Shown: positions 2,964 through 58,503 of the stretch, one piece after another | How positions within the stretch are numbered: position 1 is the first letter of the stretch | Layout: each line of letters starts with the position of its first letter | Assembly: GCA_017481945.1 (NCBI GenBank) | Contig: JAFUOJ010000024.1 | Span: 1-64,000 of the forward strand | Direction: 5' to 3' | DNA length: 64,000 bases | Source of the DNA: Parabacteroides sp. | Lineage (GTDB): Bacteria; Bacteroidota; Bacteroidia; Bacteroidales; Tannerellaceae | Made by a program: the position numbers and the translations under genes | The notes under the pieces: generated by a model | The model's database searches: none | The model's input: the letters and a program-made list of their open reading frames with translations, nothing else | What the model was told of the DNA's origin: nothing

Positions 2964-3260
2964 TGAATTTGTGACAATCCGTAACAGCATTCATGCGAGG
3001 GCTGTTCATCGGAGGACATAAAAGAAGCGAAAAAGCGTTTACGATATTATTCCCAACACCAAAAATCGCCAATTTTTAGTACTTCGGGAATGATAGGCGA
3101 CAGATGCTTGCGCTCTACTGTATATTTCTATGTCACAGACAAGAACCATCATAGTATAGAGCGTGGGCTGTTGTTTAATTATCTGAAGTACGGGTGTTTG
3201 GGCGATGCCTTGGTGTTGGATAGTTAGGTAACAGTTTCCACGCTTTTTCTTTTGTTGAAT
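2964..3260 (+). ncRNA. Candidate structured RNA / leader, copy 1
   Basis: No ORF here. Nested helices: P1 3053-3062 with 3210-3219 (10 bp, CCAACACCAA/TTGGTGTTGG); an AA/GCC internal loop; P2 3065-3070 with 3201-3206 (ATCGCC/GGCGAT); an 8-base 5' loop AATTTTTA; P3 3079-3085 with 3185-3191 (GTACTTC/GAAGTAC); an inner CGCTCTA/TAGAGCG stem (3111-3117 with 3157-3163). GCGTGG at 3161-3166 can pair with CCACGC at 3238-3243, outside the stem, which is followed by a T-rich run. A -7-like TGAATTTG (2964-2971) is followed by GTGAC, as in copy 2 at 57037-57350. The decayed Sel1-repeat gene starts 48 bases after this element. I do not recognise a named RNA family. Confidence 0.6.
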
Positions 3261-3307
3261 CTTTTAAATAAACAACTGGAGGGAGACACAGAAAAATAAG
3301 TAGAGTT

Positions 3308-4906
3308 ATGGGTATAGAAAAACAACAAGCTTATGTAAAAAATTGTAAAAACTGGGGTTAAAACTGCTGTAAATGGTGCAGCTATTGGTTCAGCAATTTC
3401 CTATCAGCAGGATACTATCTCTGAATACTTTAATTATATAAGAAATTTCCTTTTAGATGAAATAAAACAATGTACAAATATTTCTTACGTAAATGAAGGA
3501 AATAGTCTTCGTTTTATTAGCTTAGACGACAAGAAAGCTAGGATGTTACAAATGAAACTCTATGAAAAATATGGAGTATTTATTACGGAAACAGAAATTT
3601 TATGTTGTTCAACAGTCAAAGATTTGATTAATAGGATAATAAATGAAAAAATAATACAGAATAAAAAACAACCCAAAATAGAAAAAGAACAAGCGTTATT
3701 TAATAAATTATTTAACCACTTATTGAACGAAGAGAAAGAAATTATAAAAGATATTCAAACAGTTCAAAAATTTATTGCAGAAATAGAAACAATCTCCTCT
3801 AATATCGAAAACAATGTGATTCGTTCTGAATTCTTATTCCTTCAAGCTCTGTGTTGCTTTTATTACACTATTGAACATAGAGATAAAGCTTTAATCCAAA
3901 TAGGTGAGAAGTTTATTAGCTAAGCGCAACAATGTTATCATGACGATGAATATACAGTTTTTCAGCTCATAATTAAATTATATAATATTAATCATGAGGA
4001 GTCCAATATTGTATCGATACAAGAAAAAATATCAATATCATTTCCCGATATTTTAAAAATAAAGAATACACTATTTAAACCCGAATATCTTCTAAATATT
4101 TATGAAGATAGCCGTCATGACTCTTTATTAGAGTCGTGTATTTCCCTAGAAAACAGGAAACAATATAAGGATTCTGAAAAATGTTGGATTATGATGACAA
4201 AATTATCTAATAGTTTTTCAAAATTTGTAGGTAATTATTGTTTATACTCTTACTATTTATCTGGAATTGGCGATGTAGAAGAATCAGCAGAAAAATGTTT
4301 CTTATATTGTAAAGAAGTGGTAGATCTATATGATTTAGAAAAGTATTTCGATAAAAAAGATATAAATCATCAGAGATGGTTAGAATGTTTAAGTATATTA
4401 GGTTCTTGCTATTTGGATGGATATGGAACAAATAAAGACTTTAAAAAAGGTTTTGATATTTCTTTAAAAGCCGCCTTATTAGGAGACAAAGAATCTATAC
4501 TTAAATTAGGAGAAATTTACGAATTAGGAAAATGTATTTTTCGTAATTTTAAAAAAGCAATAGAATGGTATCAAGAAGCCGCTATTTTGGAGATGAATAT
4601 GCTCGACAAAAACTTGTAGAATTATCTTCAAACAATCTTAACAATACTCAAGGTACATCTCCAAGAGAACGCTGTCTATTGAATCGATTACGTGAAAAAC
4701 TTGGTATTAGTGAAGCAAGAGCTCAAGAATTAGAAGCGTCCCTATTGAAATTTCAATTGACGGATGAAGAGAAAGAATATATAGAGGAATATATGGCTTG
4801 TTTGGAGGAGAAACACAATTTCAGACAAGAACGTCGTTTGGAAAAAGTATTAGGTATTTCCTCAGAGAGAGCAAATCTATTAAAAACTTTTTGGCGCGAG
4901 AGATGA
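3308..4906 (+). pseudogene. Decayed Sel1-repeat protein gene (two frameshifts and a stop)
   Basis: The reading starts at ATG 3308 (after AGGGAG) and is open for 17 codons. It then shifts frame in the A-rich run near 3335-3345 into a frame running VKTGVKTAVNGAAIG and onward. That frame is interrupted by TAA at 3921-3923, continues open to 4619, and shifts again near 4575, where AIEWYQEAAI resumes as LGDEYARQKLVEL in another frame. AIEWYQEAA..GDEYARQKL is a Sel1-like repeat. The C-terminal part (to 4906) is a charged helical domain with two similar halves, LREKLGISEARAQELE and LEKVLGISSERANLL. Intact, it would be about 530 residues and cytoplasmic. Function unknown. Three independent lesions argue for real decay rather than a single sequencing error. 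Confidence 0.8.
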
Positions 4907-55931: not shown

Positions 55932-56936
55932 ATGAGCGAATATACAGCAAAAGATTTCAAGAAAGGACAACCGCGTTGGTGTCCGGGTTGTGGCGACCAC
56001 TTCTTTTTGGCTTCGCTACATAAAGCGATGGCTGAATTGGGTGTTGCTCCTCATGATATAGCCGTTATTTCGGGTATTGGTTGCTCCAGCCGTCTACCTT
56101 ATTATATGAATACGTATGCAATGCAAACGATTCACGGACGTGCAGCTGCTATTTCTACCGGTTTTAAGGTGGCAAATCCCAATATGACGGTTTGGCAGAT
56201 TTCAGGGGATGGAGATGGATTGGCAATTGGCGGTAATCATTTCATTCATGCCGTTCGTCGTAATATTGATATTAACATGATTCTTTTGAATAACCGTATT
56301 TATGGTTTGACAAAGGGACAATATTCTCCAACCTCTCCACGCGGATTCGTAAGTAAGTCTTCTCCTTATGGAACTGTTGAGGATCCGTTCCGTCCGGCAG
56401 AACTTTGTTTTGGTGCTCGTGGACGTTTCTTTGCACGTGCTGTGGCGACTGACGCACCGGGAACTGTTGAAGTTTTGAAGGCTGCAGCTAATCATAAAGG
56501 GGCTGCAGTATGTGAGATTCTCCAAAACTGTGTGATTTTTAATGATGGTACACATGAGTCTGTTTATTCAAAAGAGGGACGTGCTAAGAATGCAATCTAT
56601 TTAGAGCATGGCAAGCCAATGTTGTTTGGAGAAAACAAGGAGTTTGGATTGGTACAAGAAGGATTTGGCTTGAAAGTGGTAAAGTTGGGTGAAAATGGTA
56701 TCACAGAAAAGGATATTCTGGTACATGACGCTCATTGCCAAGATAACACATTGCAGTTGAAGTTAGCTTTGATGGAAGGACCAGATTTCCCGATTGCTTT
56801 AGGTGTCATTCGAGATGTGGAAGCTCCTACTTACAATGACGCTGTTCATGAACAATTGGATGAAGTTTCTGCTAAAAAGAAATATCATAACTTCCAAGAA
56901 TTACTATTGACTAATGATATTTGGGAAGTAAAATAA
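55932..56936 (+). CDS. korB: 2-oxoacid:ferredoxin oxidoreductase subunit beta
   Basis: A 334-residue thiamine-diphosphate subunit. RWCPGCGDH holds the CxxC of the start. The TPP motif is SGDGDGLAIGGNHF with downstream NMILLNNRIYGLTKGQYSPT. Length fits KorB, and it lacks an extended ferredoxin-type Cys cluster. Pairs with the preceding korA. Confidence 0.94.
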   Translation: MSEYTAKDFKKGQPRWCPGCGDHFFLASLHKAMAELGVAPHDIAVISGIGCSSRLPYYMNTYAMQTIHGRAAAISTGFKVANPNMTVWQISGDGDGLAIGGNHFIHAVRRNIDINMILLNNRIYGLTKGQYSPTSPRGFVSKSSPYGTVEDPFRPAELCFGARGRFFARAVATDAPGTVEVLKAAANHKGAAVCEILQNCVIFNDGTHESVYSKEGRAKNAIYLEHGKPMLFGENKEFGLVQEGFGLKVVKLGENGITEKDILVHDAHCQDNTLQLKLALMEGPDFPIALGVIRDVEAPTYNDAVHEQLDEVSAKKKYHNFQELLLTNDIWEVK

Positions 56937-56958
56937 TTGTCATACTGATAAATGTAAG

Positions 56959-57004
56959 AAACCTTCTGGCAGCTATTAATTAGGCTTTGCTGGAAGGTTT
57001 TTTA
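56959..57004 (+). terminator. Terminator after korB
   Basis: AAACCTTC (56959-56966) pairs with GAAGGTTT (56993-57000), with inner AGC/GCT pairing, then a run of T. Confidence 0.8.
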
Positions 57005-57014
57005 TTTGTCTTTT

Positions 57015-57044
57015 ATTGTAAATTCTACTTTTTACGTATATTTG
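57015..57044 (+). promoter_or_regulatory. Bacteroidota promoter for structured RNA copy 2
   Basis: ATTG (57015-57018) and TATATTTG (57037-57044), spaced 18 bases, right after the korB terminator. The transcript would start near 57051, about 80 bases before the outer helix. The TTTGTGAC around the box is repeated at copy 1 (2968-2974). Confidence 0.6.
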
Positions 57045-57350
57045 TGACGCACCTTTAGCAGAAAGCCTTTGGGTGGAATGTGAGGTGTTTTTATATTTTT
57101 AGAGAAGACGTTTATTAGCGTTTGTTTTTCGTATTTCAAAACTTCGCAACTTTTGACTCCTCGGAAACGAATAGCAACAAAGACGTCCTCCTGATAGTTG
57201 TATATATGTGTTTATATTTCGTAAGGAGTATAGATTGTATTATACGATATCGGCGTGGGCTTTCTGCGTTGCTCGTTCTCGAGGAGAGGGCAATGCGAAG
57301 GCCTTGAAATACAGAACGGGCAAAGGTAAGATTCCCACGCTTCTTTTGTA
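57045..57350 (+). ncRNA. Candidate structured RNA / leader, copy 2
   Basis: No ORF. Nested helices: P1 57131-57139 with 57304-57312 (9 bp, GTATTTCAA/TTGAAATAC); AA/GCC internal loop; P2 57142-57148 with 57294-57300 (CTTCGCA/TGCGAAG); 8-base 5' loop ACTTTTGA; P3 57157-57163 with 57280-57286 (CTCCTCG/CGAGGAG); then AACGA/TCGTT and GCAAC/GTTGC. GCGTGGG at 57253-57259, in the apical part, is complementary to CCCACGC at 57334-57340, outside the stem, followed by TTCTTTTGT. Copy 1 at 2964-3260 has the same plan with different paired bases. It lies 63 bases ahead of a small HTH gene, so it may be its leader or an independent sRNA. Confidence 0.65.
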
Positions 57351-57412
57351 TTAACAAGTAACAGACATAGTCTTTAGGGAATCCAGACTATTATTTTTAG
57401 GTAAGGAAACCT

Positions 57413-57631
57413 ATGGTTCATGTCGGATTACTCATTAAGCGAATACTACGAAGTCAAGGACGTTCTGTAACTTGGTTTGCTACGCAATTATGTTGTACCC
57501 GACCAAATGTGTATAAGATATTCCAAAAAGAAAATATAGATATTCATTTGCTTTGTCATATTTCCCGTATTCTTAATCATGATTTCTTTCAGGATATTTC
57601 TGAGTCGATCAACGAATCTGATAAGAAATAG
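57413..57631 (+). CDS. Small helix-turn-helix protein (XRE-like)
   Basis: A 72-residue protein with one helix-turn-helix: LLIKRILRSQGRSVTWFATQ (helices 1-2) and CCTRPNVYKIFQKENIDIHL (recognition helix). The pattern is that of a short family of XRE-like regulators common in Bacteroidota whose targets are unknown. It begins 63 bases after the structured RNA candidate. No partner toxin is adjacent. Confidence 0.7.
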   Translation: MVHVGLLIKRILRSQGRSVTWFATQLCCTRPNVYKIFQKENIDIHLLCHISRILNHDFFQDISESINESDKK

Positions 57632-57723
57632 GATACACTTTTGTAAAACCTTTGGAATTATGAATTGAGGAACTTCCGTTTTTATTTACAATACTTTTAC
57701 GGACAATAAATTTTATAGTAATT

Positions 57724-58503
57724 ATGTTCGGTAAAGTATTGAAGTTCATTGTCCTTATCTCCTTTTGTCTTTCTTCTTTTTATATAAATGCTGTAAATAA
57801 ACAATCAGATAGTTTAAGGATAGTTTCAAATGAAGAAAAGTTCCATTTAAAACAATTGATTTTGCCAGCTTCTTTGATCGCTGTAGGTTCTTTTGGGGCC
57901 AGTAATGGTTGGTTTAATAAACATGTAGATAATGAAGTTCGGGATTGGATGAAGGATTGGCGAGGAGATAACCGCTTTCATGCTGATGATTATATTCAAT
58001 ATGTTCCTGCTGTCTCTTATTTAGGATTAGGAGTATTAGGAGTCGAGACAAAACATTCTTTTCAAGAACGATTGGCAGTATTGGGAACCTCTTATTTAGC
58101 AATGGGAATTTTGGTTAATTCCATTAAATGGAGTGTTGATCGGAAAAGGCCAGACTCTCCAGCAATGAATTCTTTCCCTTCAGGACATACGGCTACAGTG
58201 TTTATGGGAGCAGAACTTATGCGGATAGAATATAAGGAGGTTTCTCTTTGGTATGGAATAGGAGCTTATACAATAGCTGCGGGAGTCGCATTTATGCGTT
58301 TATATAATGATAGACATTGGTGTAGTGATTTATTAGCAGGTGCGGGGCTTGGTATCTTAAGTGCTCGTATAGGATATTGGTTGTTACCTTTTAATCGGAA
58401 GATATTTAGGATAAAAAAGAAGGAATATTCTACAATGATTGTTCTTCCATTTTATAATGCTAATGAAAAAGGAGTGGGCGGAACTTTAGCCTGGACTTTC
58501 TGA
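57724..58503 (+). CDS. PAP2 superfamily phosphatase, exported (copy 2)
   Basis: A 259-residue relative of the gene at 27058. Signal peptide (FIVLISFCLSSFYINA), then the shared LILPASLIAVG stretch. Catalytic motifs are KWSVDRKRP, SFPSGHTATVF and RLYNDRHWCSDLLAGAG. Periplasmic lipid or isoprenyl phosphatase; the substrate cannot be told (LpxE/LpxF- or UppP-like roles are both possible). Stands alone after the HTH gene. Confidence 0.9.
   Translation: MFGKVLKFIVLISFCLSSFYINAVNKQSDSLRIVSNEEKFHLKQLILPASLIAVGSFGASNGWFNKHVDNEVRDWMKDWRGDNRFHADDYIQYVPAVSYLGLGVLGVETKHSFQERLAVLGTSYLAMGILVNSIKWSVDRKRPDSPAMNSFPSGHTATVFMGAELMRIEYKEVSLWYGIGAYTIAAGVAFMRLYNDRHWCSDLLAGAGLGILSARIGYWLLPFNRKIFRIKKKEYSTMIVLPFYNANEKGVGGTLAWTF

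Follow-up and report, generated by a model that had tools for sequence, protein, structure and literature searches.

Structured leader RNAs with two competing folds, a candidate family of transcription attenuators in Bacteroidales

What does the long, highly structured RNA predicted at positions 57045–57350 of a Parabacteroides contig do, and does it act on the gene behind it or on its own? The element lies within a 64-kb stretch (64 000 nucleotides, called here the window) of a draft genome of 2.79 Mb. A first-pass annotation, made from the letters alone, had drawn a series of nested helices over 57131–57312, a rival pairing that would resemble a terminator, a promoter ahead of both, and another copy of the same shape near the start of the window (copy 1); it proposed a leader that switches the downstream HTH gene, or else a free regulatory RNA. 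A check of the letters found the nested helices exactly as they had been noted. They are listed in Table 1 as N3, N4 and N5, together with the other features discussed below.

Table 1. Features of the element, its surroundings and copy 1, in window coordinates
Feature	Sequence	Position	Strand	Remark
Copy 1, −7 box	TGAATTTG	2964–2971	+	imperfect; from the sequence
Copy 1, conserved core		3032–3249	+	type B member; R1 score 202 bits, E 3e-44
Possible −33 element	TTG	57016–57018	+	
−7 box	TATATTTG	57037–57044	+	matches TAnnTTTG; 86 bases ahead of N3
P0, leader 5′ hairpin		57049–57088	+	predicted from the MFE fold alone
Conserved core		57102–57346	+	type A member
N3	GTATTTCAA with TTGAAATAC	57131–57139 with 57304–57312	+	9 bp; P1 of the first-pass annotation
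Internal loop between N3 and N4	AA/GCC	57140–57141/57301–57303		
N4	CTTCGCA (loop 1) with TGCGAAG (loop 3)	57142–57148 with 57294–57300	+	7 bp; P2 of the first-pass annotation
8-base loop	ACTTTTGA	57149–57156		
N5	CTCCTCG with CGAGGAG	57157–57163 with 57280–57286	+	7 bp; P3 of the first-pass annotation
N6, outer part	AACG with CGTT	57166–57169 with 57274–57277	+	5′ side of whole N6 feature, 57166–57178
N6, inner part	AGCAAC with GTTGCT	57173–57178 with 57268–57273	+	
Variable apical region (P2 hairpin)		57179–57252	+	from alignments
P3a, 5′ arm	GCGTGGG	57253–57259	+	strand common to both competing folds
P3b	TTGCTCGTTCT with AGAACGGGCAA	57269–57279 with 57313–57323	+	extended terminator stem; excludes N6
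P3a, 3′ arm, then T-rich run	CCCACGC, TTCTTTT	57334–57340, 57341–57347	+	3′ half of the putative intrinsic terminator
H2, second hairpin	ATAGTCT-TTAGGGAATCC-AGACTAT	57367–57391	+	between terminator and start codon
Downstream ORF		57413–57631	+	72 aa, small putative HTH protein; 21 nt behind H2

The minimum free energy (MFE) of the element is −108 kcal/mol (z −5.8), and none of 100 shuffled sequences was as stable; the fold of copy 1 gave a z of −6.7, again with no shuffle out of 100 as stable. In Bacteroidota the consensus of the −7 box is TAnnTTTG, and the promoter proposed ahead of the element was indeed found as a box of this form, with transcription presumably starting near 57051. Across the family such a box lies 31–120 nt ahead of the conserved core in 87 of 96 copies, compared with 128 of 1920 shuffles, and the distance from box to core in the kind of leader represented by copy 1 is mostly 58–71 nt.

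We call the kind to which the element at 57045–57350 belongs type A and that of copy 1 type B. Profile searches of 100 loci recovered distinct copies of both types, 60 of type B and 36 of type A, from which came two models, R1 (type B, 47 sequences) and R2 (type A, 34 sequences). The type A core is a full-length match to R2 at 194.8 bits, the copy itself being among the 34 source sequences of that model, and 57115–57346 matches R1, a model made without this copy, in full length at E 4e-10. Copy 1 is likewise one of the 47 seed sequences of R1, the model against which it is scored in Table 1. The element and copy 1 are identical at 160 of 332 aligned bases; a covariance model made from copy 1 and its relatives (R1) matched both of them, and no other match in the window fell below E 0.05, the third-best standing at E 0.051. 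The two types grade into each other, since R2 also recovers type B copies with lower scores. For copy 1, the shape shared with the element was confirmed, and the earlier description needs two corrections: its −7 box is one base off the consensus, and within 260 nt behind it we found no ATG-started ORF of at least 50 aa. The stretch 3250–4906 behind it carries short ORFs, one of them with a Sel1 repeat, and is possibly what remains of a decayed gene.

DNA searches of 59 relatives (E ≤ 0.01, some of the matches being short) placed type A in 25 genomes and type B in 33. R1 matched at least 93 of 295 Bacteroidales genomes, an undercount given that seven candidates were scored per genome, and 67 of 183 genera. 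A phylum-wide draw, which doubles as a check of specificity, gave matches in 8 of 296 genomes with the window's own included, and the family is thus mostly limited to one order. R2 matched 31 of 34 Parabacteroides genomes. Under fuller scoring, 12 Parabacteroides genomes held between 4 and 47 R1 matches each (11 in the window's own genome), and 14 genomes picked for having a match held 1–35, the highest number being that of Odoribacter lunatus. An exact-pattern search returned 41 stretches, in records named Bacteroides, Parabacteroides and Odoribacter and in others; a second pattern found seven IMG/VR contigs on which type B leaders precede ORFs of secreted-protein-like or other kinds. A single type B query matched one P. 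distasonis plasmid and, among INPHARED phages, gave no match.

Two local arrangements were seen in the course of these searches. At one locus (G003:C158, 2032–3322 of L061) four leader copies stand in tandem with a spacing of ∼335 nt, and a surface-protein-like ORF of at least 474 aa lies behind the last of them. In Odoribacter lunatus, with its 35 R1 matches, 13 copies were inspected: four had no ORF, the contig ending within ∼140 nt, and the other nine precede ORFs of 271–963 aa, of which the two shortest are cut by the contig end and eight visibly have one common protein start. These contigs perhaps end behind the leader because the gene starts there are near-identical.

The first-pass annotation had argued that the two copies keep an RNA shape while their bases differ, and had named covariation across homologues as the test of this. 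We measured covariation with a script of our own (a G-test with APC, a Fitch-based substitution null and an exponential tail; not R-scape itself) in 61 type A rows (A7, reduced from 64 by removing the truncated locus L018 and near-duplicates) and in 108 rows of type B and more distant sequences (A6, reduced from 115 by removing one near-duplicate and six opposite-strand matches, which arise because a long hairpin matches its own reverse). The models used to align both sets include the nested pairs, and so favour them, and include neither the terminator pairs nor those of the local 5′ stem P1. The 61 type A homologues gave seven pairs at E < 0.05, each at least 85% paired and all above the null maximum. 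These fall in the three helices first drawn: four in N3 (57134:57309, 57135:57308, 57137:57306 and 57138:57305), two in N4 (57142:57300 and 57143:57299, with a C-G/U-A swap in about one-third of the 61) and one in N5 (57162:57281). The 108 sequences gave 18 pairs at E < 0.05, each at least 95% Watson–Crick or GU, with seven in N3, seven in N5, two in N4, one in N7 and one (145:156, E 0.014) in the stem that closes loop 3; 14 of them stand clear, because the last four, namely both N4 pairs, the N7 pair and the loop-3 pair, score about as high as the maximum that 60 null alignments produced (97.8). The conserved shape is supported, therefore, by pairs that covary in both sets, at a significance that an earlier tree test had reached for eight pairs with 60 type B sequences and for none with 36 type A sequences.

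Column-wise pairing gives a similar picture. When RNAalifold was applied to 47 of the 60 type B copies (A2), it returned 44 long-range pairs, 25 of which show pair-keeping changes on both sides, a count that 8 of 500 shuffles matched; 96.6% of the cells in these long-range pairs were paired, compared with 79.9% after shuffling, and double-change cells numbered 377, compared with 115. In a MAFFT alignment of 34 of the 36 type A copies (A4) the nested pairs held in 78.0% of cells against 68.5% in shuffles, with 39% for N5 and 99.6% for the N4 columns. The inner part of N6 was paired in 100% of type A cells and is nearly invariant, and its outer columns were paired in 57%. The apical region varies in length among the aligned copies and is far shorter in many distant ones. 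N4, which joins two loops, is possibly a kissing-loop contact. An alignment-free test of hairpins around these two loops, counting stems of at least 5 against a cross-sequence control, gave weak support: around loop 1 there were 33 such stems in 58 type B copies (control 42%) and 18 in 35 type A copies (control 30%; 14 of 36 against 28% under a stricter pattern), and around loop 3 there were 13 in 36 type A copies (control 38%).

The terminator-like pairing of GCGTGGG with CCCACGC, put forward as a rival to the apical folding, also appears to be kept in homologues, alongside the nested one. P3a is paired in 99.7% of cells in the 47 type B copies, where five of its seven pairs have changes on both sides, and in 99.6% of cells in the 34 type A copies, where there are no double changes; in the wider 108-sequence set two P3a pairs have single-pair p values of 4.5e-5 and 7.4e-5. 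None of the terminator pairs reached E 0.05 in either tree test, the best type A P3b pair being at E 0.52. P3b, with which N6 competes, is paired in 98.9% of type A cells, three of its 11 pairs having changes on both sides, and in 86% of type B cells, with one-sided changes only. At least four T occupy the last six bases of the core in all 36 type A and all 60 type B copies. The loop of the GCGTGGG/CCCACGC stem is far longer than in typical terminators, and a consensus terminator scanner, which takes loops of 3–8 only, returned no site in 56800–57800. On the 5′ side, ATTATTCC pairs locally as P1b, in 99–100% of cells in the 47 type B copies. In the wider set its outermost pair holds in 86% of cells and the other seven in 93–96%, with a best p of 2.8e-5.

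Both pairings draw on the same strand. In the three-way columns formed by an upstream partner, the shared base and a downstream partner, 77 of the 108 sequences have G-C-G and 17 have A-U-A, as is expected if both pairings are kept open. Two simpler structures were discarded: three hairpins without long-range pairs as the sole fold, since it is the long-range pairs that covary most strongly, and the nested hairpin as the sole fold, because the pairs of the local 5′ stem P1 and of the terminator also hold. Energetically the nested fold is the MFE structure, and the terminator fold costs 13.0 kcal/mol more for the element and 14.6 kcal/mol more for copy 1, loop–loop pairing being uncounted. The terminator might therefore seldom form unless folding is delayed or a factor intervenes. 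The nested fold, too, could finish as A-tract, stem and U-tract, and terminate.

Behind 79 of 94 copies an ATG ORF of at least 60 aa starts on the same strand within 150 nt, compared with 14 of 94 in the mirrored control, and the median distance from leader to ORF is 66 nt. For this reason we prefer a leader to a free RNA, and that part of the original proposal stands. The tie to the HTH gene does not, as that protein and its relatives account for six of 136 downstream proteins. The 136 derive from 161 sites, at ten of which no ORF with an ATG start reached 50 aa, after repeats were merged and each protein was cut at 310 aa. The 72-aa protein itself had no match in Pfam or NCBIfam at E 0.001; its homologue at locus L092 matches HTH_3 at E 4.8e-4, below Pfam's cutoff, and its five homologues among the 136 also lie behind leaders.

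The downstream proteins form 83 clusters, 68 of them singletons, with no common pathway evident. By a crude N-terminal test, 60 of the 136 are secreted or lipoprotein-like. Among the matches listed (25 of 62 families) there were at least six polysaccharide export proteins, at least four proteins with BspA-type leucine-rich repeats, at least three with T9SS sorting tails and at least three dynamin-family GTPases; matches to defence models comprised LeoA (3), LeoBC (3), JukA (1) and TerY (1). A cluster of 11 small proteins (∼116–132 aa) lies behind high-scoring leaders in several Parabacteroides species. It looks TerB-like; its member L051, scanned alone, had no Pfam match, and another downstream protein, at locus L109, matches TerB at E 1.7e-9.

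A second hairpin, H2, recurs in the stretch that separates the terminator from the start codon. This hairpin, the tens of matches in some genomes and the variety of the genes were all absent from the first-pass account, which they extend. Hairpins of the H2 type (a stem of at least 5 and a GGR-type loop) follow 49 of 144 distinct copies, compared with 68 of 1440 dinucleotide shuffles, and with a strict GGG[AG]N0-1C loop the numbers are 31 of 144 and 17 of 1440. The loops read GGGAAC, GGGGAC, GGGAGC or the like, and the stems vary. H2 belongs chiefly to type A, with 23 of 36 copies and only 3 of 58 in type B. It may be a protein-binding site or a part of translation control, and it could exist without the leader.

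Sequence comparison, which gives us the family, the pairs of both folds, the box, the T-run, the position ahead of genes, the copy number and the spread, points to a cis-acting leader RNA. We consider it probable that this RNA is a transcription attenuator, with an intrinsic terminator set against a nested fold whose halves are joined through their loops. The RNA would be made from a start ∼50 nt ahead of the core, and the 5′ half, made first, would be able to close on itself as P1. The 3′ half would then close as the terminator, through GCGTGGG/CCCACGC and the T-run, where transcription would stop. Alternatively, GCGTGGG would pair with the upstream strand (N7) as part of the nested fold N3–N7; with the 5′ arm of the terminator so occupied, polymerase would continue into the gene. 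We think it reasonably likely that the ON state is the nested fold, because this fold uses up the terminator's 5′ arm. The complementary loops (CTTCGCA/TGCGAAG, or ATCGCC/GGCGAT in copy 1) would join the two halves, perhaps in a kissing contact that seeds strand exchange. The balance between the folds, and with it the regulation of the stop, would be tipped by a small molecule, an RNA-binding protein or an antitermination factor, all of which would fit.

The leader might instead work chiefly as the landing place of a protein, a dedicated RNA-binding or antitermination factor that sits on the core and/or H2, remodels RNA polymerase and brings about processive antitermination past this terminator and later ones. 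A large, conserved, multi-copy structure, sometimes ahead of long or polysaccharide export genes, would suit such a factor, as would a second hairpin whose loop recurs while its stems vary. However, UpxY is the next protein in one of the 136 cases, which implies no general link to that antiterminator family, and we hold this explanation as a tentative possibility only.

That the element is a trans-acting sRNA, a stand-alone RNA of ∼300 nt made between promoter and terminator beside an incidental downstream gene that is controlled separately, strikes us as improbable. It has its own promoter box and a terminator-like end, the full RNA has a very low free energy, copies can follow one another in tandem (the four at G003:C158, ∼335 nt apart), and for 15 of 94 copies no ORF of 60 aa lies on the same strand within 150 nt. 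Yet the orientation is fixed and the distance to an ORF short (79 against 14 of 94), with unrelated neighbouring genes, and in 49 of 144 copies H2 separates the terminator from the start codon; it is this position and orientation with respect to genes that make a free RNA less likely than a leader.

Attenuation by a leader peptide, in which translation of a short ORF within the leader sets the fold, is very improbable. An ATG is present at the AATGCTT site in 41 of 60 type B copies; however, the predicted peptides within the core range from 4 to 61 aa with no fixed length, AACGCTC variants have no ATG and include most of the distant copies among the matches listed, and pairing with AAGC[AG]TT explains the site. 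A conserved leader peptide was thus rejected at this one candidate site, the one short ORF examined. Scarcely credible, finally, is a MITE-like mobile hairpin that is no functional RNA: there are up to 47 matches per genome, and in distant MAGs and Odoribacter several copies sit where a contig ends, which suggests repeats, but helix positions differ much among copies while pairing is kept, gene orientation and promoter spacing are constrained, and the very similar sequence behind the Odoribacter leaders inspected, gene starts included, could break assembly without a mobile element.

How does the attenuator-type leader that we favour compare with what is known? Assignment to a known Rfam class had been named beforehand as grounds for refuting the proposal, and none was found: at the gathering score none of the 4227 families of Rfam 15 matched the 64-kb window, and four targeted permissive Rfam scans gave chance-level matches only, the best at 24.3 bits where 83 were required. 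The window holds no tRNA or tmRNA. Terminator-type leaders are a known kind. The c-di-GMP (GEMM) riboswitches stand in many copies ahead of unrelated surface genes, and put and EAR RNAs are processive antitermination RNAs. By analogy, our family would resemble terminator-based riboswitches and attenuators, GEMM among them, in being a 5′ leader that sets a terminator against an antiterminator, in many copies and ahead of diverse genes; it differs from GEMM and other riboswitches in having no Rfam match, in being mostly limited to one order and in offering no ligand candidate. With put and EAR, and with the UpxY-controlled capsule leaders of Bacteroides (PMC12118408), it has in common a conserved leader that in some copies stands ahead of polysaccharide genes. 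Unlike these it has a conserved terminator of its own, and UpxY is rarely the next protein.

Candidate structured RNAs from the same bacteria include the Bacteroidales-1 (RF01693), Bacteroides-1 (RF01694), Bacteroides-2 and GUCCY-hairpin motifs of Weinberg et al. (2010; PMC2864571). Neither Bacteroidales-1 nor Bacteroides-1 matched the leader. Bacteroides-2 and GUCCY-hairpin are given no Rfam number in the passages of that paper that present them (PMC2864571), and so lie outside the Rfam scan; Bacteroides-2 is reported there from one sequenced organism, compared with at least 93 of 295 Bacteroidales genomes for the leader. Among 3161 candidate RNAs from the HMP2 microbiomes, Fremin and Bhatt (2021; PMC8040213) list 15 ahead of HTH_XRE genes; the leader family is not described in the passages that report them, and pieces of it may stand in the supplement. 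Among the papers that searches of the PMC library listed, PMC2965389, PMC7366714 and PMC10994844 included, we recognised no description of the family. As far as these searches reach, then, the family is new, as are its loop-mediated strand-exchange architecture and its use before tens of unrelated genes in a genome.

Few RNA regulators are known in the Bacteroidales, which dominate the human gut. When one folded leader stands before tens of unrelated genes of a cell, a common signal is implied, of which we found no description. It is conceivable, if doubtful at present, that the family is a new riboswitch-like sensing RNA that works by loop–loop strand exchange and through which one signal, perhaps a nucleotide second messenger, sets a Bacteroidales regulon; that regulon would consist of surface proteins, polysaccharide export and dynamin-like and other conflict genes, and in some species tens of genes would be set at once. 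The models R1 and R2 provide a sequence-defined handle for finding the signal, and from the two competing folds it follows directly what in vitro transcription and probing should show. Were a ligand or protein found to bind the core, the control of a large regulon would be explained at once.
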